NCBI GenBank assembly: GCA_029858755.1
Contig: JAOUEK010000007.1
Span: forward strand, 1 to 15,219
From: Thermoleophilia bacterium
Lineage (GTDB): Bacteria; Actinomycetota; Thermoleophilia; Gaiellales; Gaiellaceae
DNA length: 15,219 nucleotides
Reading direction: 5' to 3'
Under the pieces are notes generated by a model that saw only the letters and a program-made list of their open reading frames with translations, had not been told where the DNA came from and searched no databases. This document shows, piece after piece, positions 1 through 15,174 of the stretch (positions within the stretch are counted from its first letter, which is position 1; every line of letters starts with the position of its first letter). The position numbers and the translations under genes are program-made.

Positions 1-35
1 CCGATCACGACGACGTCGGGCTCGCGCTCGCCCAT
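1..35 (-). CDS. 5' end of a probable Rossmann-fold (FAD/NAD-binding) protein, partial
   Basis: Reading leftwards, an ATG at 35-33 opens a frame that runs off the window edge and encodes MGEREPDVVVIG. A short charged leader followed by a hydrophobic strand ending in DVVVIG is the usual start of a dinucleotide-binding Rossmann fold, as in FAD-dependent oxidoreductases; the rest of the GxGxxG loop lies outside the window. An in-frame GTG two codons upstream (41-39) is an alternative start. It follows capA on the same strand after a 59-base gap that contains a hairpin. Only twelve residues are visible, so the family is a guess. Confidence 0.45.
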   Translation of the reverse strand, partial: MGEREPDVVVI

Positions 36-47
36 GCTCACCACCGA

Positions 48-79
48 GATTCGGGGACGCGCAGGTCGGTCCCCGATTC
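48..79 (-). terminator. Imperfect hairpin after capA
   Basis: The arms at 48-58 (GATTCGGGGAC) and 69-79 (GTCCCCGATTC) pair over 11 positions with one mismatch, around a 10-base loop. The hairpin lies in the 59-base gap between the capA stop and the next leftward start. There is no T-run, so it is either an intrinsic terminator of the U-less kind proposed for high-GC bacteria or an RNA structure just upstream of the next start codon. Confidence 0.35.
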
Positions 80-94
80 AGGCCGGACGTTACG

Positions 95-1225
95 TCAGCG
101 GCGTCCGAGCACCCCGGTCGACGACACCGTCACGCCGCGCGCACCGAAGTCGGCCTTGGACAGGGAGCGCACGATCGCGTGTGCCTGCTCGGACGGGTCG
201 AGCCGCGGCACGCCGGCGTCGTTCAGCCGCGTCGGCACGAGGATGCCCGCCTCGAACCTCCCGTCGCCTCTGAGCGTGACGCGGAGGATGCCGCTCACGG
301 AGAGCGGGCCGCCGAGCGAGAACACCTTGTAGCCGCCGAAGTTGCCGAGCGAGTAGGCGATCAGGCGGCCCTTGTACCACTCCATGCCGCGGAGCACGTG
401 TGGCCCGTGGCCGACCACGAGGTCGGCCCCCGCGTCGATCGCTGCCCGCGCGAAGCGCACCGGGTCGCCGCGGTCTTCGCCCAGGTACCGCTCCGTACCC
501 CGACGCACGTGCTGCTTGTCCGTCCCCTCCGCCCCCATGTGGGCGGTGACGACGACCAGGTCCGCCGTGCGCGCGGCACGGGCGACGAGCTTGCGCACGG
601 CGGGGAGGTCGCTGAGCGAGTTGGCCCACGGGTACGCCGCGAAGCCGAGCACGGCCACGCGGATCTCGCCGACCGTCGTCGTCGTGACCTGACCCGGCCG
701 CCCCGTGTGGGCGAGCCCACGCTCGTCGAGCGCGCCGATCGTGTCCTGCAGCCCGCGCTTGCCGAAGTCGAAGGCGTGGTTGTTCGCGAGGTTGAGCATC
801 GTGAACCCCGCGCGCTGCAGCCACCGCGCGTACGACGGCGGGGTGCGGAAGGAGAAGCAGTCGGTGCTCGACGGCGAGCACTTCGACGCGGTCGCGGTCG
901 TGAGCGTGCCTTCGAGGTTGCCGAGGACGATGTCGGCCGGCAGGTCGGCCGCCACATCGGAGAAGAAGCCGCGGCCCCCGTCCGGCGGTAACCGCGGCGT
1001 CGAGCCCATGACGATGTCGCCGACCGCGGAGATGGTGACGACGCCCGGCGGGAAGGGGGGCTTCTTCGGCGGGGGCTTCGGCTTCGACGCCTGCTTCGCA
1101 GCCCTGGTCGTGGAGCCGGGCTGGGCGACGGCGGGCGTCGGCGCGCCGTCGACGAGCAGCGACGCGACGACGGCGACCAGCGCGACGACGGCTCCCGCGC
1201 GCAGGGCGAGCAGGACGCCTCGCAC
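95..1225 (-). CDS. CapA-family secreted protein (PGA_cap, metallophosphatase-like fold)
   Basis: The 376-residue protein starts at GTG 1225, preceded by a good Shine-Dalgarno (AGGAGAG, 1230-1236) that overlaps the stop codon of the upstream peptidase gene, which suggests translational coupling. Residues 1-35 are a signal sequence or membrane anchor (hydrophobic 5-24, then a VAQ-like cleavage region), followed by a Lys/Pro-rich linker (46-60). The CapA domain spans about 62-335, with the family motifs GDIVMG (69-74), NLEG (103-106), NLANNH (145-150), HMGAE (229-233), GHGPHVLRG (272-280) and YSLGNF (291-296). CapA proteins belong to the calcineurin-like metallophosphatase superfamily and are named for poly-gamma-glutamate capsule synthesis. 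No capB or capC genes are adjacent, so a capsule role is not shown; an extracytoplasmic envelope function is the safer reading. Confidence 0.9.
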   Translation of the reverse strand: MRGVLLALRAGAVVALVAVVASLLVDGAPTPAVAQPGSTTRAAKQASKPKPPPKKPPFPPGVVTISAVGDIVMGSTPRLPPDGGRGFFSDVAADLPADIVLGNLEGTLTTATASKCSPSSTDCFSFRTPPSYARWLQRAGFTMLNLANNHAFDFGKRGLQDTIGALDERGLAHTGRPGQVTTTTVGEIRVAVLGFAAYPWANSLSDLPAVRKLVARAARTADLVVVTAHMGAEGTDKQHVRRGTERYLGEDRGDPVRFARAAIDAGADLVVGHGPHVLRGMEWYKGRLIAYSLGNFGGYKVFSLGGPLSVSGILRVTLRGDGRFEAGILVPTRLNDAGVPRLDPSEQAHAIVRSLSKADFGARGVTVSSTGVLGRR

Positions 1226-1234
1226 GAAGCTCTC

Positions 1235-1921
1235 CTAGTTCCGGTTGCCCAGGAAGATGAGCGCGTAGTACGCGAGCTGTGTGAGCGCCGCCAGTGCCGC
1301 CGCGACGTACGTCATCGCGGCCGCCGTCAGCACCTTCTTCGCGCCCTGGCGCTCGCCCTCGCCGACGAGGCCGAGCTCGCGGATCTGCACGAGTGCCCGT
1401 CGGGAGGCGTCGAACTCGACCGGCAGCGTGACGAGCTGGAAGAGGACGACGACGGCGAACAGCACGATCGCGGCCTGAACCAGCCCGAGGGCCCCCATGA
1501 ACGCGCCGATCAGGAGCAGGAACAGCCACGCCTGTGAGGCGATGGACACCGCGGGCCACATCGCCGAGCGGACGCGGAAGAAGCCGTACTCCTTCGCATG
1601 CTGGAGAGCATGGCCTACCTCGTGCGCGGCGATCGCGGTCGAGGCGACGGCGGCGCCGTCGTAGACGGGCGCCGAGAGGTGAACCGACCGCTTCCGCGGA
1701 TCGTAGTGGTCGGACAGCGGCCCCCCCTGCGCGCGCTCGACGGGGACGTCCGCGAGGCCGTTCTGGTCGAGGATCTGGCGCGCCACCTGCCCGCCGGTCA
1801 GCCCCGTGAACACGGCGACCTGCATCTGCTGCGCGACGGTCTTCCGCAGCCACCCCTGGACGACGAAGCCGAGGATGAGCGGAGGGATCAGGAAGGCGAG
1901 GTAGAGCGCGAATCCGTTCAT
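1235..1921 (-). CDS. YugP-type membrane zinc metallopeptidase (Zn_peptidase_2)
   Basis: The 228-residue protein has the zincin motif HEVGH (100-104, in the context AIAAHEVGHALQH) and a likely third ligand Glu in LPVEFDAS (E169). Membrane segments lie at about 4-22, 131-148, 150-167 and 203-224. Length and order match the YugP family, which is predicted to be a membrane-embedded peptidase of unknown substrate. The start chosen is ATG 1921, because the next residues form the first membrane helix as in relatives; the frame stays open to 1987, but that extension is charged and would overlap the divergent kynureninase start. A TACGCT box ends 7 bases before this ATG and no Shine-Dalgarno is visible, so the mRNA may be leaderless. 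The gene is first in an apparent operon with capA. Confidence 0.9.
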   Translation of the reverse strand: MNGFALYLAFLIPPLILGFVVQGWLRKTVAQQMQVAVFTGLTGGQVARQILDQNGLADVPVERAQGGPLSDHYDPRKRSVHLSAPVYDGAAVASTAIAAHEVGHALQHAKEYGFFRVRSAMWPAVSIASQAWLFLLLIGAFMGALGLVQAAIVLFAVVVLFQLVTLPVEFDASRRALVQIRELGLVGEGERQGAKKVLTAAAMTYVAAALAALTQLAYYALIFLGNRN

Positions 1922-1928
1922 GGGTGGA

Positions 1929-1934
1929 AGCGTA
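1929..1934 (-). promoter_or_regulatory. -10 box (TACGCT) for a leaderless zinc-peptidase transcript
   Basis: On the minus strand TACGCT is followed by 7 bases and then the ATG at 1921. This matches the TAnnnT rule and places the predicted transcription start at the start codon. No clear -35 hexamer is seen. The same box and a similar spacing precede glgC. Confidence 0.5.
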
Positions 1935-1971
1935 GCAACGCGGTCTCGCTCGTCCGGCGGATCCGCGGCTC

Positions 1972-1977
1972 CATAAT
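1972..1977 (+). promoter_or_regulatory. -10 box (CATAAT) for the kynureninase-glgA transcript
   Basis: CATAAT stands out as AT-rich in GC-rich surroundings, ends 9 bases before the ATG at 1987, and has no Shine-Dalgarno behind it. Together with the minus-strand TACGCT at 1929-1934 it makes a compact divergent promoter region of 65 bases. Confidence 0.45.
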
Positions 1978-1986
1978 CGTTCCGCA

Positions 1987-3267
1987 ATGAGCGCCACGCG
2001 GGCCCAGGAGGAGGCGGGACGGCTCGATGCGGCCGATCCGCTGTCGACGCTGCGCGCGGAGTTCGCGATCCCGCCCTGGCCGGGCGGCCGGCACCCCGAG
2101 TGGGCCTATTTCGCCGGCAACTCCCTCGGCCTGATGCCGCGGGCGGCCCGGGCCGCGCTCGACGCCGAGCTGGGCGAATGGGCGCGTCTGGCGGTCGAGG
2201 GCTGGTTCGAGGCCCGTGAGCCGTGGCTCGAGTACGCGGGGGCCCTCCGGCCGTCGGTGGCGACGCTCGTCGGAGCCTCGCCCGACGAGATCGCAGTGGT
2301 GGGCACGCTGAGCGTGAACCTCCACCTGCTGCTCGCGAGCTTCTTCCGGCCGGGCGGCGAGCGTCGGCGAATCCTGATCGAGGACACGGCGTTCCCCTCC
2401 GACTCCCACGTCGTGCGCAGCCAGGCGGCGTGGCACGGCCTCGACCCGGACGAGACGGTGCTCCGGGTGGCGCCGCGCGACGGCGAGGCCACCCTCAGGG
2501 TCGAGGACGTCGTCGAGGCGATCGAGCGAGACGGCGAGAGCCTCGCGCTCGTCCTCCTCGGAGCGGTCAACTACCTCACCGGCGAGGTGCTGCCGCTGCG
2601 CGAGATCACCGAGGCGACGCACCGCGCGGGGGCTGTGTGCGGATGGGACCTCGCGCACGCGATCGGCAACGTCCCGGTCGACCTCCACGAGTCGGGCGCG
2701 GACTTCGCCGCCTGGTGCCACTACAAGTACGTCAACGGCGGCCCGGGAGCGCCGGCCGGGATCTTCGTCAACGAGCGGCACTGGCGTGAGGCCGAGCCGC
2801 TGCGCCTCGCTGGCTGGTGGGCGGTCGACCCCGCAACGCGCTTTCGCATGGAGCCGGGCTTCGTGCCGCGCCGGGGGGCCGAGGGCTGGGCGATCTCGAC
2901 GCCGCCGATCGTCGCGTACGCGCCACTTCGTGCGTCGCTCGCCCTCTTCGACCGCGTGGGGATGGCAGCGCTTCGGGAGCGCTCGATCCGCCTCACCGGG
3001 TGGCTCGAGACGCTGCTCGACGACGTGGCCGCCACACGGAGGATCACGCTGATCACCCCACGCGAGGTCGACCGGCGCGGCAGCCAGCTCTCGATCGCCG
3101 TCGAGCACGCGGAGGCCGTCGCCCGGCGGCTGCGTCACGAGCACGGGGTGGTCTGCGACGTCCGGCAGCCCGACGTGCTCCGCTTCGCGCCGGCGCCGCT
3201 CTACTCGTCGTTCGAGGACTGCAGCCGCGCCGCGGCCGCGCTGCGAGACCTGTCCGAGCCGCGATGA
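1987..3267 (+). CDS. kynU: Kynureninase (bacterial kynurenine-preferring type)
   Basis: This 426-residue fold-type I PLP enzyme should split L-kynurenine into anthranilate and L-alanine in tryptophan breakdown. Family motifs are YFAGNSLGL (41-49), FPSDSH (136-141), GWDLAHAIGN (219-228), WCHYKYVNGGPG (243-254, with K247 as the PLP lysine), GWW (276-278) and ISTPP (303-307). By motif alignment, W73 (EGWFEAREPW) falls where human kynureninase has His102, and T305 where it has Asn333. Trp and Thr there are the bacterial pair associated with kynurenine rather than 3-hydroxykynurenine. No tryptophan dioxygenase, formamidase or anthranilate genes are nearby. The gene overlaps glgA by ATGA, an unusual pairing. 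The start lacks a Shine-Dalgarno and follows a CATAAT box. Confidence 0.93.
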   Translation: MSATRAQEEAGRLDAADPLSTLRAEFAIPPWPGGRHPEWAYFAGNSLGLMPRAARAALDAELGEWARLAVEGWFEAREPWLEYAGALRPSVATLVGASPDEIAVVGTLSVNLHLLLASFFRPGGERRRILIEDTAFPSDSHVVRSQAAWHGLDPDETVLRVAPRDGEATLRVEDVVEAIERDGESLALVLLGAVNYLTGEVLPLREITEATHRAGAVCGWDLAHAIGNVPVDLHESGADFAAWCHYKYVNGGPGAPAGIFVNERHWREAEPLRLAGWWAVDPATRFRMEPGFVPRRGAEGWAISTPPIVAYAPLRASLALFDRVGMAALRERSIRLTGWLETLLDDVAATRRITLITPREVDRRGSQLSIAVEHAEAVARRLRHEHGVVCDVRQPDVLRFAPAPLYSSFEDCSRAAAALRDLSEPR

Positions 3268-4655
3268 GCGGGCTCCGCGTGCTCTTCGCCACGGCCGAGC
3301 TGACGCCGGTGGCCGCCGTCGGCGGCCTCGCGCAGGCGGCGACCGGCCTCGTGCACGAGCTCCGCGCCCAGGGCCTCGAGGTGGAGGCGGTGCTGCCGGA
3401 CTACGGCGGTGTCGAGCTCCGCGACGAGGAGCGCCTGCCGCCGCTCGACGTCCCCGGATGGGCGGCGCCGGCGACGGCCCGTCGCGGAGAGCATCCCTCC
3501 TTCGGCCCGGTCACGCTCGTCTCGGTTCCCGGGATCGAGCGCCCGCACCCGTACGCCGACGAGCGCGGCGAGAGCTGGCCGGACAACGACGCCCGCTTTC
3601 TCGGCTTCGCGGTGGCGGTGGCGGCGCTCGCGCGCACGTCGCGGCCCGACCTCGTGCACCTGAACGACTGGCACACGGCCGCTGCGGCCGCCGCCGTCGA
3701 CCCGGGCACGCCCGTCGTGCTGTCGGTGCACAACCTCGCCTACCAGGGCCGGACCGGGCCGGACTGGGCCGATCGGCTCGGCCCCCGGGGGGCCGCCTTC
3801 CTGCGCGACGGCGGCTGCAACCCGCTCGCCGGAGCGATCGCACTCGCCGACCTCGTCGTCGTCGTCAGCCCGACGTACCGCGAGGAGGTGCTGCGGCCGG
3901 AGACCGGCAACGGGCTCGACGGGCTGCTCCGGGAGCGGGCGGACCGGCTGGTGGGGATCCGCAACGGGATCGACACCGAGGTGTGGGGCCCCGCGCACGA
4001 CCCGCACCTGCCCGCGCCCTTCGGGCCTGACGACCTCGCGCCCAAGGCGAGTGCGAAGGCCGCGCTGCTGGAGCGACTCGGTCTGCCGGACGGGCCGGAG
4101 CCGCTCGCCGTCGGCGTCACGCGCCTCGTCGGGCAGAAGGGGTTCGACCTGCTGCTCCCGCTCGTGCCCCGGCTCGGCGAGCTGCCGCTCAGGGTGGCGA
4201 TCCTCGGCTCCGGCGAGGCCTGGCTCGCCAGGCAGCTGCACGGTGCGGCCGCCGCCCACCCGGGCACCCTGGCCTTCGTCGAGGGCTACGACGAGCAGCT
4301 CGCGCACCTCCTGCTCGGCGGCGGCGACCTGCTGCTGCTGCCGAGCCGCTTCGAGCCGTGCGGGCTCACGCAGATGCAGGCGATGCGCTACGGGACGCTG
4401 CCCGTGGTCACCGACGTCGGCGGCCTCCGCGACACCGTCGTCGACCTCGACGACGACCCCGAGCGCGGACTCGGCTGGCGGGCGCCCGTGGCCGACAGCG
4501 GGGCGCTGCTCGACACGCTGCGCCGCGCCGTCCTGGGGTGGGGCGACCCGGAGCTCCGCCTGGCCGCCCAGCGTCGCGGGATGACGGCGGACTGGTCGTG
4601 GCGGGAGCCCGCCGCCCAGCACGTCGAGCTCTACCGTCGCCTCGTGAATCGGTAG
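3264..4655 (+). CDS. glgA: Glycogen synthase, ADP-glucose type (GT5)
   Basis: The 463-residue GT-B glycosyltransferase is expected to extend alpha-1,4-glucan from ADP-glucose. The ATG overlaps the kynureninase stop (ATGA) with no Shine-Dalgarno of its own, so translation is probably coupled. The N-terminal GT5 domain has FATAELTPVAAVGGL (8-22), HLNDWHT (132-138) and SVHNLAYQG (154-162). The C-terminal domain has NGID (234-237), TRLVGQKG (286-293, with R287 and K292), SRFEPCGLTQ (361-370, with E364) and MRYGTLPVV (374-382). The E. coli KTGGL loop, whose Lys15 contacts ADP-glucose, is AVGGL here, so that lysine is missing while the other catalytic residues are kept. glgC follows directly, which supports the glycogen assignment. 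Confidence 0.92.
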   Translation: MSGLRVLFATAELTPVAAVGGLAQAATGLVHELRAQGLEVEAVLPDYGGVELRDEERLPPLDVPGWAAPATARRGEHPSFGPVTLVSVPGIERPHPYADERGESWPDNDARFLGFAVAVAALARTSRPDLVHLNDWHTAAAAAAVDPGTPVVLSVHNLAYQGRTGPDWADRLGPRGAAFLRDGGCNPLAGAIALADLVVVVSPTYREEVLRPETGNGLDGLLRERADRLVGIRNGIDTEVWGPAHDPHLPAPFGPDDLAPKASAKAALLERLGLPDGPEPLAVGVTRLVGQKGFDLLLPLVPRLGELPLRVAILGSGEAWLARQLHGAAAAHPGTLAFVEGYDEQLAHLLLGGGDLLLLPSRFEPCGLTQMQAMRYGTLPVVTDVGGLRDTVVDLDDDPERGLGWRAPVADSGALLDTLRRAVLGWGDPELRLAAQRRGMTADWSWREPAAQHVELYRRLVNR

Positions 4656-4664
4656 GTCTCCGGA

Positions 4665-4689
4665 CGGGGCCGGGACGGGCCCCCGATTT
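4665..4689 (+). terminator. Hairpin after glgA
   Basis: GGGGCC (4666-4671) pairs with GGCCCC (4678-4683) over a 6-base loop and is followed shortly by ATTTC. It begins ten bases after the glgA stop and ends before the TACGCT box of glgC, so it could separate the two transcripts. The stem is short and the U-tract is minimal. Confidence 0.4.
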
Positions 4690-4710
4690 CGCGGGAGGCG
4701 ACATCGGCTG

Positions 4711-4716
4711 TACGCT
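4711..4716 (+). promoter_or_regulatory. -10 box (TACGCT) for leaderless glgC
   Basis: TACGCT is followed by 8 bases and the ATG at 4725, with no Shine-Dalgarno. The hexamer is identical to the one in front of the zinc-peptidase gene on the other strand. Confidence 0.5.
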
Positions 4717-4724
4717 CGGCACGA

Positions 4725-5960
4725 ATGGCGGTCGAGCCACGGATCCTGGTGATCGTCCTCGCCGGCGGCGAGGGGAAGCGCCTGATGCCGCTCACCGCCG
4801 ACCGCGCCAAGCCCGCCGTCCCGTTCGGAGGGTCCTACCGTCTGATCGACTTCGTGCTCTCGAACTTCGCCAACGCCGGGTACCTGAAGATCGTCGTGCT
4901 GACGCAGTACAAGAGCCACTCGCTCGACCGGCACATCTCCCAGACGTGGCGGTTCTCAACGCTCCTCGGCAACTACGTCACCCCGGTCCCGGCCCAGATG
5001 CGCCGGGGCCCGTACTGGTTCCTCGGCTCGGCGGACGCGATCTACCAGAACTTCAACCTGATCGGTGACGAGCGGCCGGATCACGTCTGCGTCTTCGGCG
5101 CCGACCACATCTACCGCATGGACCCGCGGCAGATGGTGGACGACCACGTCGCCTCCGGCGCCGGGGTCACCGTCGCCGCGATCCCAGTCCCACACGCCGA
5201 GGCCCGGGAGTTCGGTGTGATCGAGTCCGACGCCGACGGGCGCATCCTCGCCTTCCACGAGAAGGTCGACGACCCACCGTCGATGCCGGGCGACGAGACA
5301 CGATGCCTCGCCTCGATGGGGAACTACGTGTTCGAGACGCACACACTGATGGACATCGTCGCCCCCACCGGCTCCGACCAGCAGCGCACGGACATCGGCG
5401 GCGACGTGATCCCGGCGCTGACGAGGGCCGGCGTGGCCCGGGTCTACGACTTCTCCACGAACGACGTCCCGGGCCAGGACGACCGCGAGCGCGGGTACTG
5501 GCGCGACGTCGGGACACTCGACGCCTACTACGCGGCGAACATGGACCTGATCGCCCCCGTGCCGGTGTTCAACCTCTACAACGACGCGTGGCCCGTGCTC
5601 ACCGACCAGCCACAGCTGCCCCCGGCGAAGATCTCCCGTGGCATCGGCGGCGAGCCCGCGTCGGTCGGCGCCAGCCTCCTCTGCCACGGCTCGATCGTCT
5701 CCGGCGCGCACGTGGAGCGCTCCATCGTCGGGCCCGGGACGTACGTCGACCACGATGCCCACGTCGTCGACTCGATCCTCTTCCCCGGCGTGCGCGTCGG
5801 CTCGGGGGCGCGCCTGAGCCGCTGCGTGATCGACAAGAACGTGGTCGTGCCGCCCGGCTTCAGCATCGGGCTCGACCCGTCGGGCGACTCCGAGCGCTTC
5901 ACGGTCAGCGACAACGGGATCGTCGTCGTCGAGAAGGGACGCGACCTGTCCGGCGCCTGA
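4725..5960 (+). CDS. glgC: Glucose-1-phosphate adenylyltransferase (ADP-glucose pyrophosphorylase)
   Basis: The 411-residue enzyme makes ADP-glucose from ATP and glucose-1-phosphate, the committed step of bacterial glycogen synthesis and the donor used by GlgA next door. The nucleotidyltransferase domain (about 8-275) has LAGGEGKRLMPLTADRAKP (12-30), SADAIYQ (102-108), FGADHIYRMD (124-133), SMGNYVF (197-203) and YWRDVGTLDAYYAANMDL (258-275). Residues from about 300 to 400 form the left-handed beta-helix, with hexapeptide-like SIVSGAHVERSIVGPG and a conserved IDKNVVVPPG near its end. Length and sequence agree with actinobacterial GlgC. It has its own TACGCT -10 box and no Shine-Dalgarno, so it is probably transcribed separately from kynU-glgA. 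Confidence 0.96.
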   Translation: MAVEPRILVIVLAGGEGKRLMPLTADRAKPAVPFGGSYRLIDFVLSNFANAGYLKIVVLTQYKSHSLDRHISQTWRFSTLLGNYVTPVPAQMRRGPYWFLGSADAIYQNFNLIGDERPDHVCVFGADHIYRMDPRQMVDDHVASGAGVTVAAIPVPHAEAREFGVIESDADGRILAFHEKVDDPPSMPGDETRCLASMGNYVFETHTLMDIVAPTGSDQQRTDIGGDVIPALTRAGVARVYDFSTNDVPGQDDRERGYWRDVGTLDAYYAANMDLIAPVPVFNLYNDAWPVLTDQPQLPPAKISRGIGGEPASVGASLLCHGSIVSGAHVERSIVGPGTYVDHDAHVVDSILFPGVRVGSGARLSRCVIDKNVVVPPGFSIGLDPSGDSERFTVSDNGIVVVEKGRDLSGA

Positions 5961-5998
5961 CGGGTCGGCCGACTCGTGCCGGGCCCGGACCGGCCCCG

Positions 5999-6004
5999 TA
6001 GAAT
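5999..6004 (+). promoter_or_regulatory. -10 box (TAGAAT) for the cupin-amidohydrolase transcript
   Basis: TAGAAT is followed by exactly 6 bases and then GTG 6011. A transcription start 7 bases past the box would fall on the G of GTG, giving a leaderless message. No Shine-Dalgarno is present. Confidence 0.55.
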
Positions 6005-6010
6005 CCCTCC

Positions 6011-6370
6011 GTGGACGTCCGCCGCTGGCACGAGGAGAACGTCGAGGAGCTGACGCCGGGGATCGGGCGGCAGGCGCACCACACGGGACGCCTGACCGTC
6101 GCGCGGATCTTCCTCGGTCAGGGCGCCGTCGTGCCCGAGCACAGCCACGAGCACGAGCAGGTGGCCACCGTGCTCGAGGGCCGGCTCCGCTTCCGCATCG
6201 AGGACGCGGAGACGATCCTCGCGAAGGACGAGACCATCGTCGTTCCGTCGGGCGCACGGCACACGGTCGAGGCGCTCGAGGACTCGCTCGTGCTCGACGT
6301 CTTCGCCCCGGCCCGCGACGACTGGATCCGCGGCGACGACGCGTACCTGCGCTCCCCGGTTGACGGCTGA
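6011..6370 (+). CDS. Small single-domain cupin protein
   Basis: The 119-residue protein starts at GTG and is one cupin barrel. Motif 1 (G39-G57) carries the metal-ligand cluster EHSHEHEQ, with H44, H46 and an acidic residue at 49. Motif 2 is PSGARH (79-84), with H84 as the final ligand. Such stand-alone cupins bind a divalent metal and act as small dioxygenases, isomerases or sensors; nothing here fixes the substrate. The last 11 bases overlap the start of the amidohydrolase, so the two are probably translated together and may act on related compounds, which is inference. A TAGAAT box lies 6 bases upstream. Confidence 0.85.
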   Translation: MDVRRWHEENVEELTPGIGRQAHHTGRLTVARIFLGQGAVVPEHSHEHEQVATVLEGRLRFRIEDAETILAKDETIVVPSGARHTVEALEDSLVLDVFAPARDDWIRGDDAYLRSPVDG

Positions 6371-8000
6371 CCTCGTCCTCGCGGGGGGTACCGTGCTCAC
6401 CAGCGACCGCGCACGCCCGCGGGACGAGGCGGTCGCCGTCCGGGCCGGGCGCATCGCCTTCGTCGGCTCCGCCGAGGACGCCCGCGAGTGGGTCGGCCCG
6501 CACACGGAGGTGATCGAGCTCTCCGGGCGCACGCTCCTGCCCGGCTTCCAGGACGCGCACGTCCACCTCGCGAGCAGCGGCCTGGGGGGGCTGCAATGCG
6601 ACCTCCGCGCGGCCGCGGCGCCCGCCGCGTACGGGGAGCTGATCCGCGCCTACGCCGCCTCGCACCCGGACGAGGAGTGGATCGTCGGCGACGGCTGGGG
6701 GTCGGACGACTTCGGAGGGCCGATGCCGACGCGGCAGCAGCTGGACGCGATCGTCGCCGACCGTCCCGTGTACCTGGAGACCCGTGACGCACACACGGCG
6801 TGGGTCAACTCGCTGGCGCTCGAGCGGGCGGGGGTGACCGCCTCGACACGCGACCCCGAGGGAGGGTTGATCGACCGCGACGACGCGGGCGCGCCCTCCG
6901 GGACGCTGCAGGAGAGCGCGCGGCGCCTCGTGCGGGCGCACCTCCCGGAGCCGAGCGCCGCCGACTGGCAGGAGGCGATCCGGCGCGCGCAGGCGGAGTT
7001 GCACTCCTACGGCGTCACCGCGTGCCAGGAGGCGAACCTGACGCCGGACCTGTTCGAGCCCTACCGCGCGGTGGCCGGGCGCGGGGAGCTGACGATCCGC
7101 CTCGAGGGCAACCTCGCCTGGGACTCCGCGCTGGAGACGGAGCAGCTCGAGGGCCTGCTCGACCGGCGTGCGCGCGGCACCGTCGGCCGCATGCGGATCC
7201 GCGGGGCGAAGCTCTTCCAGGACGGCGTGGCCGAGAACTTCACCGCCGCCATGCTGGAGCCCTACCGCGACGCCGCAGGCGCACACACGGCGAACGCCGG
7301 TCTCAGCATGTTCGCGCCGGAACGGCTCGCGCGCGACGTGACGCTGCTCGACGCCCACGGCTTCCAGGTTCATGTGCACGCGCTGGGCGACCGCGCCGTG
7401 CGCGAGGCGCTCGACGCGCTCGAGGCCGCGGCGCGGGCGAACGGCCGGCGCGACGCGCGCCATCACCTGGCTCATCTCCAGTTCGTCCACCCCGAGGACC
7501 TGCCGCGCTTTGCCGCCCTCGGGGTCGTCGCGAACGTGACCCCGCTCTGGGCCGTGCTCGACGGCTACGTGACCGACCTCACCCTGCCGTTCGTCGGCGA
7601 GCGGGCGGCGGCCACGATGTACCCGTTCGCGAGCCTCGCCCGCGCGGGCGCGCGCCTCGCCGTCGGCAGCGACTGGTCGGTGTCCTCCCCGGATCCGCTG
7701 CTGCAGGTCGCGGTCGCGGCGCTGCGGCGCATGCCGGACGAGCCCGGGGCCGAGCCGCTGCTCCCTGCCGAGCGCCTCGACGTTGCCGCGGCGCTCGAGG
7801 CGGCGACGCTCGGCTCCGCCTACGTGAACCACCTCGACGCTGAGACCGGCTCGATCACGGTCGGCAAGCTCGCCGACCTGGTCGTGCTCGACCGCGACCT
7901 CGCGGGCGCCGGGCCGGCGGAGATCGCCGAGGCCCGCGTCGTACTCACCCTGGTCGAGGGCGAGACGGTCTACGCCTCGCCCGAAGGCCGGCCGGCCTGA
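6360..8000 (+). CDS. YtcJ-type metal-dependent amidohydrolase (amidohydrolase family 3)
   Basis: The 546-residue protein fits the family length. The N-terminal beta-sandwich strand ADLVLAGGTVLT supports the TTG start at 6360 inside the cupin gene; no Shine-Dalgarno is visible, so reinitiation after the cupin is likely. The TIM-barrel metal motifs are LLPGFQDAHVHL (59-70, HxH at 67-69), KLFQDG (284-289), QVHVHALGDRAV (336-347), HLAHLQF (369-375) and GSDWSV (436-441). The C-terminal sandwich ends with ITVGKLADLVVLD. Members hydrolyse cyclic amides, imides or exocyclic amide bonds, and the exact substrate cannot be read from sequence. A strong hairpin follows the stop. Confidence 0.92.
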   Translation: MTADLVLAGGTVLTSDRARPRDEAVAVRAGRIAFVGSAEDAREWVGPHTEVIELSGRTLLPGFQDAHVHLASSGLGGLQCDLRAAAAPAAYGELIRAYAASHPDEEWIVGDGWGSDDFGGPMPTRQQLDAIVADRPVYLETRDAHTAWVNSLALERAGVTASTRDPEGGLIDRDDAGAPSGTLQESARRLVRAHLPEPSAADWQEAIRRAQAELHSYGVTACQEANLTPDLFEPYRAVAGRGELTIRLEGNLAWDSALETEQLEGLLDRRARGTVGRMRIRGAKLFQDGVAENFTAAMLEPYRDAAGAHTANAGLSMFAPERLARDVTLLDAHGFQVHVHALGDRAVREALDALEAAARANGRRDARHHLAHLQFVHPEDLPRFAALGVVANVTPLWAVLDGYVTDLTLPFVGERAAATMYPFASLARAGARLAVGSDWSVSSPDPLLQVAVAALRRMPDEPGAEPLLPAERLDVAAALEAATLGSAYVNHLDAETGSITVGKLADLVVLDRDLAGAGPAEIAEARVVLTLVEGETVYASPEGRPA

Positions 8001-8015
8001 GCGCCACGCCACGAC

Positions 8016-8043
8016 CAGGGGTCTGGCTTCGAGCCGGCCCCTG
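8016..8043 (+). terminator. Intrinsic-like terminator after the amidohydrolase
   Basis: CAGGGG pairs with CCCCTG at the base, followed by a U-G and a C-G pair, a single bulged T, and an inner GGCT/AGCC stem closed by a TCG loop. It starts 15 bases after the stop codon at 7998-8000 and is followed by the pyrimidine-rich CTTCCTGTCCCCC. Confidence 0.6.
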
Positions 8044-8094
8044 CTTCCTGTCCCCCGACGGCTTCCGAGGCTTCCCTTTCCCGCCGCGCCGCAG

Positions 8095-8100
8095 TAGCAT
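8095..8100 (+). promoter_or_regulatory. -10 box (TAGCAT) for the cyclic-nucleotide-binding gene
   Basis: TAGCAT is followed by 7 bases and GTG 8108, with no Shine-Dalgarno. It lies downstream of the terminator-like hairpin at 8016-8043, consistent with a separate leaderless transcript. Confidence 0.5.
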
Positions 8101-8107
8101 CGCCCTC

Positions 8108-8518
8108 GTGCTGCGCAAGAACGCCAAGGTCGATCTCATCTCGCGGGCGCCGCTCTTCTCCGAGCTCTCCAAGAAGGAGCTGGGCGAGGTGGCGTCGATC
8201 GCCGACGAGATCGACCTGCCCGCGGGGCGGGCGCTGACCACGCAGGGGGAGCGCGGCCGCGAGTTCTTCGTGATCGTCGAGGGCTCGGTGAAGGTCGAGA
8301 AGAACGGACGCAAGGTGAACGAGCTCCACGCGGGCGACTTCTTCGGCGAGGTCGCCCTCCTCACCGACGCCACGCGCAACGCGACGGTCACCGCGACAGC
8401 ACCGCTCCGCGTGCTCGTGGTCACCGATACGGCCTTCAAGTCGCTGACGCGGCGGATGCCGTCGATCGCGCCGAAGCTGCTCGCGCCGCTCGCCGAGCGC
8501 ATCGACGACAACCTCTAG
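8108..8518 (+). CDS. Stand-alone cyclic-nucleotide-binding domain protein
   Basis: The 136-residue protein is a single CNB domain. It opens with the usual helix (LISRAPLFSELSKKEL), continues through the beta-roll (RALTTQGERGREFFVIVEGSV), and reaches the phosphate-binding cassette FGEVALLTDATRNATVTA. The Glu and Arg that normally contact the cyclic phosphate are both present, so cAMP or cGMP binding is plausible. The C-terminal helix ends at the stop with no helix-turn-helix, channel or kinase domain, so it is not a CRP-type regulator by itself and would have to act through a partner. The start is GTG behind a TAGCAT box, and a 15-bp perfect inverted repeat follows. Confidence 0.9.
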   Translation: MLRKNAKVDLISRAPLFSELSKKELGEVASIADEIDLPAGRALTTQGERGREFFVIVEGSVKVEKNGRKVNELHAGDFFGEVALLTDATRNATVTATAPLRVLVVTDTAFKSLTRRMPSIAPKLLAPLAERIDDNL

Positions 8519-8719: not shown

Positions 8720-10501
8720 ATGAGCGAGATGCGCGGTGCCGACCTCGTCGTCGAGTACCTCATCCGCGAGCAGGTGCCCTACCTGTTCGGCTACGCGGGA
8801 CACGGCGCGGTCGGACTGCTGGACGGAGTCTTCGACCGCCAGGACGAGATCGAGGTCGTCTTCCCGCGGATCGAGACCGGCGCGGCGTACATGGCCGACG
8901 CCTACTACCGCGTCAGCCACGAGGTGATCCCCGTCTACACCTCCACCGGGCCCGGCCCGATGCTGCTGACGGCGGCTGTTGCCAATGCCTTCTACGACTC
9001 CTCCGCGATGATCGCGATCACCGGGCAGGTCGCGACGACGCAGAACGACTCCGGCGCGCTGCAGGAGGAGTACCGGCACTACCAGGCGGACTTCCCGAGC
9101 ATCGCGAAGGTGATCACGAAGCGGAGCTTCCAGGCCCACTCGGTCGCCGACCTCGGCAAGTTCCTCCCCAAGGCGTTCAAGCTGGCACGGGAAGGGCGGC
9201 CCGGCCCGGTGCACATCGACGTGCCGTACGACCTCTGGGTGACGAAGGCCGACGTCGAGGTGCCCGAGCCGGCCGAGCACTCGCGCCAGCTGAACTGGCG
9301 GACACCCGGCTCGCCGGAGGCGGTGGGGAGGGCGCTGGAGATGCTGCTCGCTGCGAAGCGCCCGCTGATCCTCGCCGGCGGCGGCGTGATCTGCTCGGAG
9401 GCGAGTGCCGAGCTCCAGGCCTTTGCGGAGCACGTCAACATCCCCGTCTACACGTCGTTCATGGGCAAGGGGGCGCTGTCGGCACGGCATCCGCTGCACC
9501 TCGGCATCGCCGGCTGCTGGGGCGAGTACCCGGCCCAGGAGGCGGCCCGCAACGCCGACGTGATCCTGGCGCTCGGCTGCCGCTTCTCCGACATCCACAG
9601 CTCCTCGTGGCTGCCGGGCTACACGTACAACATCCCCCCGACCAAGCTGATCCACGTGGACATCGACCCGCAGGAGATCGGCCGCAACTACCCGACCGAG
9701 CTCGGCATCATCGGCGACATCCGCGAGGTGCTGCGCCAGCTCGTCCAGCTCGCCGAGGCGCAGGGGCCGAAGCGCGAGCGCTCCCCCTGGCACGACCAGG
9801 TCGAGGGGTACAAGGAGGAGTGGACGAACTTCATCGAGCAGGAGAAGGCGTCCAACGCGGTGCCGATCGACCCGCGCCGCGTGATCAAGGAGCTGCGGGC
9901 AGCGGCGCCCGACGACACGCTGATGATCACGGACACGGGGAACCATCAGACGTGGGTCGAGCAGTACTGGGATGCGCTCGGCCCGCAGATGGTGTTCACG
10001 CCCGGCGGGTTCGCGGGCATGGGCTTCGGCACGTACGGCGTGCTCGGGCTCAAGCTGGCGCGACCCGACCAGCCGGCGATCTGCGTCACGAGCGACGGCA
10101 GCTTCATGATGTTCCCGGGCGCCGTCGCCACCGCGACGGAGCACGGGATCCCCGCGGTCTGGGTGATCTTCAACAACTACACGATCGGGGTGATCCGCGA
10201 CCTCCAGCGCTTCTACATGGACGGCCGCGAGATCGGCACCAGCTTCGTCAAGCAGTCGACCGGCGAGTTCTGGAACCCCGACTTCGCGAAGATGGCCCAG
10301 GCCATGGGCGCGGGCGGCATCTCGGTCGAGGACCCGGCCGACCTCGGCTCGGCCTTCGAGACCGCGCTCGCGGCCGGCACGCCGTACGTGATCGACGTGA
10401 AGGTCAACCGCGACACGGCCGTGCCGCTGATCGGAACGTGGCACTTCGCGCCGATCCCGCAGGCCGAGCCGACGTTCGGGAAGCCGCTGATCCTCACGTG
10501 A
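8720..10501 (+). CDS. Thiamine-diphosphate-dependent enzyme, acetolactate-synthase-like
   Basis: The 593-residue protein has the three-domain layout of the acetohydroxyacid synthase superfamily. The N-terminal PYR domain carries the catalytic Glu in [13 protein letters not shown] (E52), TSTGPGP (74-80) and [10 protein letters not shown] (101-110). The middle domain (about 200-345) has LILAGGGV. The C-terminal PP domain has the ThDP/Mg motif from SDGSF (458-462) to NN (485-486), where Ser replaces the first Gly of the usual GDG. The start is set by GAAGGGAG six bases upstream. No ilvN regulatory subunit or other branched-chain gene is nearby, so a catabolic or other 2-oxoacid reaction is as likely as acetolactate synthesis. 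It overlaps the following ATPase gene by GTGA. Confidence 0.85.
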
Positions 10502-11601
10502 GCCGCTACCCGTTCTCGGCGATCGTCGAGCAGGAGCGCCTCAAGCAGGCGCTCCTGCTCAACGCCGTCAACCCCGCGGTCGGCGGCGTGCTCGTCGAGG
10601 GGACGAGCGGCACCGGGAAGTCGACCGCCGTGCGCGGCCTCGCCGAGCTCCTACCCGAGATCGACGTGGTCGCCGGGTGCCCCTTCTCGTGCTCTCCGCT
10701 CGAGCCGTGCGCGCACTGCGTGCAGCGTCAGGCGCGTGGCGAGGCGCTGGAGACGGTGCGGCGGCGGGTGCGTGTGGTCGACCTCCCGCTCAACGCCACC
10801 GAGGATCGCGTGGCCGGCTCGGTCGACATCGCCAGGGCGCTGCGGGAGGGGATCATGGCGCTCGAGCCCGGGCTGCTCGCCGACGCGAACCGCGGCATCC
10901 TCTACGTGGACGAGATCAACCTGCTGGACGACCATCTCTGCGACGTGCTGCTCGACGCCGCCGCGCTCGGGGTGAACGTCGTCGAGCGCGAGGGCGTCTC
11001 GGTGTCGCATCCCGCGGCGTTCCTCCTCGTGGGGACGATGAACCCGGAGGAGGGTGAGCTGCGGCCGCAGCTCGCCGACCGCATCGGCCTGCGGGTGGTC
11101 GTGGACGCGCTCGCCGACCCCGGTCGGCGCGCCGAGGTGATCCAGCGACGGGAGGCCTTCACCAGCCAGCCGGCCGCGTTCGTCTCGGAGTGGGCCGACC
11201 GGCAGGCCGCGCTCTCGGCGTCGGTGCAGGATGCCCGCGAGCGTGTGGGCCGTGTGACCGCGACACCAGGGACCTACCGGGCGATCGCGCGCCTCGTCAC
11301 CGGCGTCGGCGTCTCCAGCCATCGTGCCGACGTCACCGTGCTCCAGTGCGCCAAGGCGCTCGCGGCGCTCGACGGGCGGCTGGAGGTCGGCCGTGACGAC
11401 CTGCTCGAGGCAGCGGGCCTCGCGCTCGGGCATCGCGTGGTGCTCGACCCGTTCGACCCGGGCTCCGGCCTCGACGATCGACTGCTCAGGCGCATCCTGG
11501 ACGATGTGCTCGACGAGGAGACGGCGGAAAAAAAAGCGGCGGGCCCGGCGACGCCGGAAGAGACGTCGACCTCTCGGAGCTCGACGGCACGCCGGGGCTG
11601 A
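10498..11601 (+). CDS. Magnesium/cobalt chelatase small subunit-like AAA+ ATPase (ChlI/BchI type), zero-frame product
   Basis: The 367-residue protein starts at a GTG overlapping the previous TGA. It is a BchI-type AAA+ ATPase: [20 protein letters not shown] (4-23) at the front, Walker [10 protein letters not shown] (35-43), a four-cysteine insert [14 protein letters not shown] (61-74), Walker [11 protein letters not shown] (134-143), and [17 protein letters not shown] (179-195) with sensor and arginine-finger residues. A lid domain runs to about 340. After EKK (344-346), encoded within an A8 run, only a 21-residue Ser/Thr/Arg-rich tail remains before TGA 11599-11601. ChlI-type subunits form the ATPase ring that drives metal insertion into porphyrin or corrin. 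The same start probably also yields a longer ChlD-like protein by a -1 shift at 11529-11535. No cobN or chlH is in view, so the metal is undetermined. Confidence 0.9.
11515..11557 (+). promoter_or_regulatory. Programmed -1 frameshift signal (internal SD, A8 slippery run, hairpin)
   Basis: GAGGAG (11515-11520) lies 8 bases before the heptamer A AAA AAA (11529-11535), read in the ATPase frame as gaA AAA AAA. Nine bases after the heptamer, CCGGC (11545-11549) and GCCGG (11553-11557) form a stem over GAC. This is the three-part layout known from dnaX. A one-base backward slip moves translation into the von Willebrand A frame. Transcriptional slippage that adds one A would have the same effect. 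This is the only A-run of this length I find in the window. Confidence 0.75.
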
Positions 11602-12437
11602 TCCGGCTCGACGTCGACCCGGCCCGGGTGTTCGACGTGAAGGCTCCCGCCGACGGGCTCGAGCGCGGGGCGATCGGTCGTCGCACGAGGTCGCTCGTGG
11701 CGCTCCGCCGCGGGAAGTACTCCCGCCCACGGCTGGCGCGGGCGCGCGACAGCGACGTGGCCTTCGACGCGACCGTGCGCGCCGCGGCCGCCCGGGCGGG
11801 ACGCCGGGGGGCCGTGTTCGCGATCGCGGTCGAGGACGTCCGGGCGAAGGTTCGCGAGCATCGCGTGCCGCTCGAGGTCTGCTTCGTGCTCGACAACTCC
11901 TACTCGCTGCAGGCCGACCGCCTCGTGGAGAAGGTCAAGGGCCTCGTCTTCGAGCTGCTGCAGGACGCCGCCTCGCGCGGCGACCGCGTCTCGGTGGTCG
12001 CCTTCAGGAGCGGCCGGGCGGAGGCGACGGTCGCGCTGCGCCCGACCGCGAGCGTGCGCCTTGCCGCCGAGCGCCTGCGCCGGGTGCCCCTGAGCGGCCG
12101 GACGCCGCTGGCGGCGGCGCTCGACACGGCGCGGCGGCTCCTCTTCCAGGAGCTGCACAAGCGCGCCAACGCGCACCCACTGGTGGTCGTGGTCAGCGAT
12201 GGCCTCCCGAACGTGCCGCTGCGGCGGACGGGCGACGCGATCCGCGACGTGCTCGAGCAGGGGCTCCTGCTGCGTCGCGCGAGGATCCCGTGCGTCGTCG
12301 TCGACGCCGTCCCGCCGGGACGCGCGGAGGAGAGCTGCGGCCGCGCGCTCGCCGACGTCGCCTCCGGTGTCCACGTGGCCCTGTCCGATCTCTCGCCCGG
12401 TGCGTTCGCCGAGGCGGTGGCCGAGCTCACCGGGTAG
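11535..12437 (+). CDS. chlD: von Willebrand A part of a ChlD-like chelatase medium subunit, made by -1 frameshift
   Basis: Read in the -1 frame from 11535, this adds 300 residues to the first 346 of the ATPase, giving a 646-residue AAA+-VWA protein, close to actinobacterial one-piece ChlI/ChlD-like chelatases. After an acidic linker ([11 protein letters not shown]) comes a basic segment, [18 protein letters not shown]. The VWA domain follows with a complete MIDAS: DNSYS (D466, S468, S470 of the fusion), T536 in SGRTPL, and D568 in VVSDGLPN. The frame is open from 11397 but has no ATG, GTG or TTG before 11628, and GTG 11628 lies inside the basic segment region with no Shine-Dalgarno, so independent initiation looks poor. 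Without the shift, the VWA domain would lose its ATPase half. Confidence 0.82.
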
Positions 12438-13465: not shown

Positions 13466-13972
13466 TCAGCGTCCGTGCTCGAGCTGATCCTCGATCCAGC
13501 TGTCGGCGTCCTCGCGAGACGAGCCGCGAGCCTGCGCGATCTCGTCCGCCAGGAGCTGACGGGCCTTCACGACGACCTCTCGCTCGCCGGCGGAGATCTG
13601 TGTCCCCTTGCCGGCCTCCTGGAGCCTCCGCTGGCGCTCCGCGGCCTCGCAGACGATCTCGGCGAGGCCGACCGCGTCGCCGCCGACGAGCTTCGCCATC
13701 GTGTCGCGGCGGCGCGACAGCCACTGCCCCTCGCTGACGACGGGATCCGCGCGTAGCGCCTCGCGCACGCGGTCGAGGTCGGCTTTGGTGGCCAGCGGCC
13801 GGAGCTCGCTGAGCGCACGGTCGAGGGGGAGCGTCACGGTCAGCCCGTCGACCATCGCCAGCACGACCGTCTCGTGCGTGGAGCCCGACGAGGCCGAGAC
13901 GGGCTTGCGCTCGACGACGCGCCCGATTCCGTACGCGCGGTACACGATCTCGTCACCGACTCCGAGCTTCAC
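13466..13972 (-). CDS. carD: CarD-family RNA polymerase-binding transcription regulator
   Basis: The 168-residue protein has the CarD layout. The N-terminal RNAP-interacting Tudor-like domain (about 1-60) reads KLGVGDEIVYRAYGIGRVV, then VVLAMVDGLTVTLPLDRA. A helical DNA-binding domain follows, containing GQWLSRRRDTMAKL. W84 aligns with the wedge Trp (W85) of mycobacterial CarD that props open the upstream edge of the promoter bubble. The tail ISAGEREVVVKARQLLADEI (126-145) is also conserved. CarD binds the RNAP beta subunit and adjusts open-complex stability at many promoters. The GTG 13972 start is chosen because homology begins there and a TACCCT box ends 6 bases before it; upstream frame extension shows no homology. 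Confidence 0.95.
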   Translation of the reverse strand: MKLGVGDEIVYRAYGIGRVVERKPVSASSGSTHETVVLAMVDGLTVTLPLDRALSELRPLATKADLDRVREALRADPVVSEGQWLSRRRDTMAKLVGGDAVGLAEIVCEAAERQRRLQEAGKGTQISAGEREVVVKARQLLADEIAQARGSSREDADSWIEDQLEHGR

Positions 13973-13978
13973 CCTCTT

Positions 13979-13984
13979 AGGGTA
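13979..13984 (-). promoter_or_regulatory. -10 box (TACCCT) for leaderless carD
   Basis: On the minus strand TACCCT is followed by AAGAGG and then GTG 13972. The purine stretch touches the start codon and is too close to serve as a Shine-Dalgarno, so a leaderless start is favoured. Confidence 0.5.
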
Positions 13985-14353
13985 CAGGTGCCACCCGCTC
14001 CGTCGCCGTGGCCCGCTGCCCGGCCCGAGTCGACGGCACGGCCAGGCGCGCCCCCGACCGTGGCCGGGCCGCAGAGCACGTTCGCGTGCTGCCGCCGATC
14101 GCCCACTTCGGGCCCTCGTTCCTCTGCGGCAACATGCAGACGACCCCGTGCAAGGGGCTCTGGCATGGGTTCCGCCGCGGCACCCCGCGTCTCCGGCTTC
14201 TCGTGAAGCCGTTCCGCCCGTTCGCGCCCCTTCGTCAGCTTCGGCGGCCGGCCGCGGCCGGCCGCGATCCGCGCAACGGTCGTCGCGACGCACCATTCAC
14301 AGGGGAACCGGGAGCGGGTTCGCGACGGCGTCCCGATACCCCGCTGCAGGGTG
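13985..14353. other. Gene-free region upstream of carD with several hairpins
   Basis: About 370 bases between the carD promoter and the queF stop carry no protein frame I can support, although open frames cross it on both strands because of GC content. It holds AGCACG-TTCG-CGTGCT (14075-14090), CCCC-6-GGGG (14144-14157), a 7-bp perfect stem CGGCTTC-TCGT-GAAGCCG (14194-14211) and a 22-base perfect palindrome (14244-14265). It could contain a structured RNA, a dispersed repeat, or a decayed gene. I see no tRNA T-loop and no rRNA sequence. Confidence 0.45.
14244..14265. repeat. 22-base perfect palindrome
   Basis: The sequence is its own reverse complement over all 22 bases. It consists of two GGCCGGCC units flanking a central CCGCGG-type core. 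It lies 88 bases beyond the queF stop in the leftward direction. It could fold into a cruciform or terminate queF transcripts; being all G and C, it may also partly reflect base composition. Confidence 0.6.
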
Positions 14354-14770
14354 TCAGGGCGACTCGGTCGCTGCCGTTGCCGTGATCGTGATTCCGCCGC
14401 GTGCCTTCTGCACGAGCGTGACGTGCACGGCACTGGGCTCGACCTCGAGAGCGGTGGCAACGTCGTCGCGGATCTTCACAGCGAGGCTCTCGCAGAAGAC
14501 CCCCTCGTTTCGGTACTGCATCAGGTAGAGCTTCAGCGACTTCGACTCCAGGCAGAGGAGGCGCGGCGCGTAGTCGATCGTGACGACGTACAGGTCGGGT
14601 TGTCTCGTGACGGGACAGATCGCAGCCAGCTCGTCACTCGTCATCTGCACCCGCGTGACCCCGGGATTCTCGAACGTCTCGAGACCTCCGTACTCCGTCG
14701 AGCCCGAGTGCCCCAGAGCGACGAACGGGCTGGTGCCACGCGTCTCGCCGATGCCGCTCTTGCCGCTCAT
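14354..14770 (-). CDS. queF: NADPH-dependent 7-cyano-7-deazaguanine reductase
   Basis: This 138-residue unimodular (short) QueF reduces preQ0 to preQ1 in queuosine tRNA modification. It belongs to the tunnelling-fold superfamily. Diagnostic residues are the catalytic Cys in ICPVTRQPD (C52) with the general-acid Asp (D59), the QueF motif ESKSLK (75-80) for NADPH, the substrate Glu in FCE (E94), and ARGGI (123-127). In B. subtilis QueF the FCE position is FHE, so His is replaced by Cys here. ATG 14770 is preferred over an open extension to 14833, which would overlap the divergent gene. TACAGT ends 6 bases upstream of it with no Shine-Dalgarno. No queC, queD or queE is in the window. Confidence 0.94.
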   Translation of the reverse strand: MSGKSGIGETRGTSPFVALGHSGSTEYGGLETFENPGVTRVQMTSDELAAICPVTRQPDLYVVTIDYAPRLLCLESKSLKLYLMQYRNEGVFCESLAVKIRDDVATALEVEPSAVHVTLVQKARGGITITATAATESP

Positions 14771-14775
14771 GCGCC

Positions 14776-14782
14776 TACTGTA
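14776..14782. promoter_or_regulatory. Symmetric -10 element TACTGTA between divergent genes
   Basis: On the minus strand TACAGT (14782-14777) is followed by 6 bases and the queF ATG, fitting a leaderless start. On the plus strand the same bases read TACTGT (14776-14781), also a TAnnnT box, 24 bases before ATG 14806. One symmetric sequence could therefore drive both genes across a 35-base gap. The plus-strand use is less certain. Confidence 0.45.
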
Positions 14783-14805
14783 CGGGTTGACTTGACCGGG
14801 AAACC

Positions 14806-15174
14806 ATGAAGCGCGTCTATCTCGCCGGACCACCGTATGCCGAGGAGTACCGACGTCGGGCCACGACGCTCGCGCGTAACGCCAACTGGGAAGCGGTCGA
14901 TCCGATGCGGCGTGACTTCAGGGGCCGGACAAGCGGGCACGAGCGCGAGATCGTCGACGGCGACCTCGCCGACATCGATGCCAGCGACGCCGTCCTCGCT
15001 GCGTTCACCCACCCCGACGAGGGCACCGCGATGGAGGCCTGGTACGCACACCGATCAGCCAAGCCGGTCATCGTCTACACGGGCGGCAGCCCCCCACACC
15101 CGTGGGTCGTCTACGTCGCCACCGCGTTGCATGCCGACCTCGAGGACGCGGTCGAGGCCCTCACCAAGCTCTAG
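14806..15174 (+). CDS. Nucleoside 2-deoxyribosyltransferase-like protein
   Basis: The 122-residue protein has the features of this small alpha/beta family: an opening strand and loop MKRVYLAGPPY, an acidic stretch IVDGDLADIDASDAVLAAF (49-67), and the catalytic-type Glu in DEGTAMEAWYA (E77), followed by the strand KPVIVYT. Family enzymes exchange bases on 2-deoxynucleosides or hydrolyse the N-glycosidic bond of nucleotides. The start is ATG 14806; GGGA five bases upstream is a weak Shine-Dalgarno. The gene is divergent from queF. A link between nucleoside or base metabolism and 7-deazaguanine handling is possible but rests only on position. The 45 bases after the stop show nothing. Confidence 0.82.
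   Translation: MKRVYLAGPPYAEEYRRRATTLARNANWEAVDPMRRDFRGRTSGHEREIVDGDLADIDASDAVLAAFTHPDEGTAMEAWYAHRSAKPVIVYTGGSPPHPWVVYVATALHADLEDAVEALTKL

Follow-up and report, generated by a model that had tools for sequence, protein, structure and literature searches.

A frame-broken ChlI/ChlD-type gene forms a conserved three-gene module with a thiamine-dependent enzyme in uncultured Thermoleophilia

We describe a frame-broken gene in a stretch of 15,219 nucleotides (the window; all positions refer to this whole stretch) of contig JAOUEK010000007.1 from the Thermoleophilia bacterium assembly GCA_029858755.1, a draft genome of 564 contigs. The gene carries a ChlI-type AAA+ ATPase and a ChlD-type von Willebrand factor A (VWA) domain on the two sides of a -1 frame break at a run of eight A, and it is the middle member of a three-gene module that also holds a thiamine pyrophosphate (ThDP) enzyme and an unannotated protein of 209 residues, which we call P209. 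The sequence itself shows that the frame is broken, that the break is conserved and that the module is present in three genomes; translational -1 slippage is very probably the mechanism. Leaving the identity of any client aside, we hold with considerable confidence that a frameshift, the three-gene module and a setting other than that of a chelatase go together here. Far more tentatively, and with more doubt than belief, we propose that in these uncultured Thermoleophilia the gene could encode a frameshift-built AAA+/VWA activase for the thiamine-dependent enzyme, with P209 as its adaptor and without a chelatase large subunit.

The zero-frame open reading frame (10498-11601, on the forward strand like all features of the locus) has a GTG start and would give a short product of 367 residues. 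Pfam and NCBIfam scans and a structure profile match assign it to the ChlI-type AAA+ ATPases, with a Walker A motif and an E value of 9.4e-113 against ChlI structures. The frame passes through the A8 run (11528-11535), phased gaA AAA AAA GCG at 11527-11538, and ends at a TGA (11599-11601) that lies 63 nt downstream of the slippery heptamer A_AAA_AAA (11529-11535). The -1 frame, open over 11397-12437, has the GTG at 11628 as its first ATG, GTG or TTG. A -1 slip on the heptamer would yield a joined product, predicted at 646 residues, in which 300 residues (11535-12437) of ChlD-type linker and VWA domain follow the slip. The VWA domain bears the second of the two domain signatures, a metal ion-dependent adhesion site (MIDAS) with intact motifs DNSYS, SGRTP and VSDG, and matches the structure of the 60 kDa subunit of magnesium chelatase with an E value of 1.4e-13. 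An initial annotation of this DNA had described both frames in this way, and our analysis confirmed their coordinates, the position of the first -1-frame start and the intact MIDAS. A8 is found once in the window where 0.00 occurrences are expected (200 dinucleotide shuffles), and no other run of at least six A or T occurs there; the matching regions of 14.0 and 18.0 kb in two relatives likewise have just one, the counterpart of A8. With the slip codons left out of the count, seven window genes encode lysine by AAG 39 times and by AAA 0 times. This avoidance is less strict in one of the relatives, G034, in whose ThDP enzyme gene 3 AAA stand against 16 AAG.

The frame break is conserved. A sample of 61 genomes (the source and 60 relatives) contains close orthologues of the gene in three, the source, G034 (65% identity) and G027 (66%), which belong to three genera of one family; the top two of the weaker matches (48% and 51%) are in-frame ChlD genes. 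At all three DNA loci the frame breaks at the identical codon, with A_AAA_AAA followed by GC and a shift to -1. The run counts eight A in G034 and seven in G027, and the distance from heptamer to zero-frame stop is 42 and 21 nt respectively. The initial annotation had proposed a -1 signal joining the two domains, marked by the A-run, a stop within about 70 bases and a hairpin. The signal is supported, since G034 and G027 break frame at this very codon, and the A-run and the nearby stop are kept at all three loci while the hairpin is not; a single frame with no slippery run, which would have spoken against the proposal, is seen in neither orthologue-bearing relative. In all three pairwise comparisons variation is greatest at third codon positions, those of the zero frame up to the slip and those of the -1 frame beyond it.

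Protein databases extend this picture. A search with the AAA+ part returned 1193 clusters at E<=1e-100, and each of the 120 matches listed, one of them this gene, has KK at the place of the slip and 3 to 21 residues from the C-terminus, a count that rests on proteins rather than DNA and on 120 of the 1193 clusters. The frame break is thus kept in all 120 members listed. These matches are 324 to 383 residues long, and the residue preceding KK is E in 66, P in 22, R in 15, A in 5, S in 5, Q in 3, G in 3 and T in 1, every one of which can be coded with a final A. A search with the VWA part returned 226 clusters at E<=1e-40. In some JGI records the halves stand as two genes, named ChlI and ChlD, and records of this kind therefore probably lack the long protein.

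The frame-broken gene keeps constant company. Upstream lies the ThDP enzyme gene (8720-10501; 593 residues, acetolactate synthase superfamily, Pfam TPP_enzyme N, M and C), whose stop overlaps the start of the frame-broken gene as GTGA, and P209 (12447-13076) begins 9 nt past the VWA stop. The overlaps in G034 are GTGA between the first two genes and TGATG between the last two. In G027 (locus L153) P209 overlaps the frame-broken gene as ATGA; the ThDP enzyme gene ends 171 nt before the chosen start codon and, being broken by N, appears in pieces. Genes flanking the trio are not the same across the three loci. Each member of the trio was found in the same three of the 61 genomes and in none of the others at the cut-offs used, which for ThDP enzyme homologues was E<=1e-150, a value of our choosing. 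The ThDP enzyme is 83% identical in G034. P209 occurs in three of 129 genomes of the order, and in a draw of 396 genomes of the phylum, which evidently did not include the two relatives, it was found in the source genome only. Across the class the AAA+ profile at E<=1e-130 picks out only the three module genomes (3 of 399; next best 6.2e-115), or 2 of 257 under a completeness bound that excludes G027. At E<=0.001 P209 has 466 homologues. When lists of 120 rows each for ChlI, VWA and P209 matches were compared, identical longest-contig sizes (at least 3 kb) were shared 16 times between ChlI and VWA (0.24 expected), 9 times between ChlI and P209 (0.22 expected) and 12 times between VWA and P209 (0.24 expected), which points indirectly to linkage of these genes in metagenomes.

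The two companions are themselves only partly classified. The ThDP enzyme scores 430.7 bits against TIGR00118 (acetolactate synthase large subunit) and does not reach the cut-off of 538.35; we take its motifs ETGAA and SDG...NN to be the context of the catalytic Glu and the metal/ThDP motif. P209 matches nothing in Pfam or NCBIfam at E<=0.001, and its predicted structure (pLDDT 94.9, pTM 0.90) gave no confident fold match.

How the two frames are joined has to be considered together with the surroundings of the slip. A Shine-Dalgarno-like GAGGAG (11515-11520) lies 8 nt upstream of the heptamer and a 5-bp hairpin, CCGGC-GAC-GCCGG (11545-11557), starts 9 nt past it, both as the initial annotation had placed them; what did not stand is a role as a shared signal, as neither is conserved in the two relatives and the 5-bp hairpin is not the best fold. 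The best fold predicted for the possible downstream stem (11536-11605) has a stem longer than this hairpin (-38.7 kcal/mol, z -2.28, with 7 of 200 shuffles equally stable). For this gene z varies with the length folded (45 nt 0.18, 60 nt -2.99, 75 nt -0.45, 105 nt -1.17). The corresponding 70 nt show no excess stability in G034 (z 0.32) or G027 (-0.53), nor does z leave the range of -1.44 to 0.74 over the 45, 60, 75 and 105 nt windows of these relatives. The hairpin as a conserved stimulator was therefore dropped, the 70 nt folded at the three loci having no excess stability in common. GAGGAG is absent from the 36 nt upstream of the A-run in both relatives, and an Rfam scan of the window gave nothing at the gathering score.

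An A-run could also act one step earlier, on the polymerase. In transcriptional slippage one A would be added and messengers with nine A would be read through, giving the same two products. The A8 run is near a slip-prone length; a review (PMC5009743) cites bacterial runs of 9 A or T. Such slippage is less likely at the seven A of G027, which lie in the same frame as A_AAA_AAA. Cassettes from other magnesium chelatase cluster genes, as given in parts of Antonov et al. 2013 (PMC3711429), frameshifted in E. coli by 10% at 7 A, 40% at 9 A and 63% at 11 A; the 7-A value would argue against a need for polymerase slippage, though such a cassette does not separate the two mechanisms. We consider the transcriptional route unlikely and retain translational -1 slippage as the best reading.

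Is the gene then part of a chelatase? The initial annotation had spoken of two chelatase subunits and of cobalamin producers, and this part of it was not borne out. Searches of the three module genomes found neither CobN/ChlH (PF02514) nor CbiC/CobH (PF02570), a marker of the corrin pathway; the same searches succeeded for both families in the two other relatives searched, G006 and G007. In G006, a member of the same genus, and in G007 an in-frame ChlD gene adjoins CobN, in a clade far from that of the module. Because the three genomes are drafts these absences are uncertain; if misses were independent, the odds that CobN escaped notice by chance in every one of them would be about 0.0015 (our own arithmetic). 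As neither the large subunit nor the corrin-pathway marker was found, the locus does not belong to a cobalt or magnesium chelatase of the known kind. In a tree of 108 of 111 loci (L064, L065 and L047 removed as duplicates; bootstrap not settled) the module clade stands alone with support 100/100, and the frameshift label requires at least two changes on the starred branches and five by parsimony. A separate chlI gene, which the initial annotation had suggested looking for, was sought in these draft genomes and no good second copy was found, the next match scoring 28.5 bits here, 33.7 in G034 and 21.3 in G027.

It nevertheless deserves weighing that the locus could be a usual cobalt chelatase pair, with CobN and the corrin genes missed in the drafts, or a pair serving another tetrapyrrole. 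The best NCBIfam match is TIGR02442, a putative cobaltochelatase, and frameshifted chlD genes together with CobN have been published (Kuznetsov et al. 2022; PMC9227772). With the two halves scanned apart, however, TIGR02442 gives 452.5 bits for the N-terminal and 171.9 for the C-terminal part, and even their sum of 624 remains below the cut-off of 779.45; TIGR02030 (390 against 466.95) and TIGR02031 (235.7 and 99.7 against 499.55) do not reach theirs either. The large subunit and CbiC are missing from the results for all three genomes, one of them 96% complete, and the partners with which the frame-broken gene does occur are the ThDP enzyme and P209. A chelatase pair is thus improbable in our view.

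The frame break might alternatively leave two separate proteins and no fusion, the VWA frame being re-initiated at an internal start such as the GTG at 11628. This GTG sits 27 nt past the zero-frame stop. Counted from the slip along the -1 frame it is residue 32, and G027 carries a GTG at residue 27; 24 of the 120 VWA gene calls listed begin at the place equivalent to 11628, suggesting that an internal start is possible in part of the family. In G034, in contrast, the first ATG, GTG or TTG of the -1 frame comes 68 residues after the slip and past a conserved stretch, so that re-initiation alone fails to explain the family. The starts of the VWA gene calls scatter (MIDAS offset of 12 to 107 among the 120 matches listed), and under this reading the KK that all 120 listed AAA+ matches carry shortly before their end would be purposeless. 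We therefore regard two separate proteins only as very improbable. That the gene has decayed, or that the break arose as an error in sequencing or assembly, is hardly credible even for an error-prone homopolymer in a draft of 564 contigs, because the same codon breaks the frame in both other orthologue genomes (one with seven A), KK precedes the stop in all 120 proteins listed, and the motifs are intact on either side.

Besides the 24 gene calls that start at an internal GTG, several points weigh against a slippage-made fusion in a dedicated, non-chelatase module. The frameshift product is a prediction from sequence, and neither the downstream structure nor the upstream box is conserved over the three loci. 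The codon-position alignments were built in the very frame that they tested and had no control in another frame, and in-frame fusions, at over about 642 residues, lie outside the reach of the ChlI-type listing. The three module genomes are 80, 96 and 81% complete, the N-interrupted ThDP enzyme gene of G027 passes its cut-off narrowly (4.3e-153), and the module is seen directly in three genomes only, the contig-size link being indirect.

With these reservations, a -1 programmed frameshift at A_AAA_AAA would make two proteins from one start, the ChlI form (AAA+, 367 residues) and the ChlD form (AAA+-VWA, 646 residues). Because both would carry the same AAA+ domain they could join one ring, and if the long form is produced and mixed rings assemble, slippage would fix the number of VWA arms per ring. 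The likeliest role may be that the pair remodels or activates a client protein in the way of CbbQ-CbbO and NorQ-NorD; the ThDP enzyme is then the leading candidate for the client, and P209 may be an adaptor. We give somewhat less than even weight to the tentative idea, argued by analogy, that such a machine acts for the ThDP enzyme and not for a tetrapyrrole chelatase.

Comparison with known systems shows where the analogy holds. CbbQ-CbbO is an AAA+/VWA machine acting on a client protein. Passages of PMC13036017 describe NorQD as another such machine with a client and name CbbQO alongside it. Shared with these are an AAA+ ring, a VWA partner bearing a MIDAS and a gene that adjoins that of a candidate client enzyme; different are the use of one frameshifted gene, a sequence that falls in the ChlI/ChlD branch and a client role that is putative. 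In dnaX the frameshift yields the short form, and short and long ATPase can share a ring. The likeness lies in the A-rich heptamer, which in dnaX is A_AAA_AAG according to parts of PMC5009743, and in a short and a long ATPase that here, too, could share a ring; the difference is that the shift would here give the long form, and conserved stimulators were not found at the three loci. CobNST and ChlIDH draw their small (AAA+) and medium (AAA+-VWA) subunits from the same families, whereas here the three genomes yielded neither PF02514 nor CbiC and the NCBIfam cut-offs are not reached.

Closest of all are the frameshifted chlD genes, which have the AAA+ part in the zero frame, the VWA part in the -1 frame, A_AAA_AAA at the junction and no separate ChlI found. 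Antonov reportedly devoted a study in 2020 to such genes. Since frameshifted chlD genes are published, including some without CobN/ChlH and of unclear function (PMC9227772), a likeness that extends to the present case, the mechanism counts as known; passages of PMC3711429, PMC5009743 and PMC8211752 give further background. What is new here is an actinobacterial clade, spread over three genera, with a frame break in every member examined, no large subunit found and a conserved tie to a ThDP enzyme and P209. Our searches of an open-licence library gave no paper that links a ChlI/ChlD-type pair with a ThDP enzyme. The role of ChlI/ChlD pairs without a large chelatase subunit was left open in the Discussion of PMC9227772, and the module offers a concrete three-gene set for probing it. 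If correct, the activase reading would tell the role of at least one lineage of frameshifted chlD genes lacking CobN, with a client that can be named.

Elsewhere the same signal appears in other surroundings. Our comparison set holds 80 named loci, two of which (L064 and L065) are the relatives; eight of the 78 others were picked by inspection as frame-broken and all eight are -1 with an in-frame A_AAA_AAA, four in Spirochaetes (L078, L091, L099 and L132) and four in Chloroflexi (L076, L085, L111 and L137). CobN is seen in 20 of the 80 loci. The ThDP enzyme, P209 and CobN were found at none of the eight in the fetched flanks (E<=1e-5), which are short and cut by contig ends. L078 adjoins genes for malic-enzyme, AzlC and tRNA-editing-domain proteins. 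In L051 and L057, from genomes of the class, ChlI-type and VWA-type matches lie -1 apart without an A heptamer in the overlap, perhaps owing to an assembly error or to another arrangement.

Downstream of the module in G034 (L152:4809-10221), P209 is followed by a Lar_N (lactate racemase N-terminal) protein and a heliorhodopsin, and the opposite strand encodes Asn_synthase-like, Ni_insertion (PF01969) and AIRC-domain proteins; together these genes presumably resemble the Lar nickel-cofactor set. A link to LarA was considered and dropped because Lar_N is widespread, in 27 of the 61 genomes, and distant from the module outside G034, lying about 53 kb away in G027 and on other contigs in the source genome. 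Within the window, ARAGORN called a tRNA-Arg (11378-11472) inside the AAA+ coding frame, which is probably false in such G+C-rich DNA. On either side of the trio (1-8518 and 13466-15174), where no link to the module was seen, the window encodes PGA_cap, zinc peptidase, kynureninase, glycogen-synthase-like, GlgC, cupin and amidohydrolase proteins as well as cNMP-binding, CarD-like, QueF-like and nucleoside deoxyribosyltransferase proteins.

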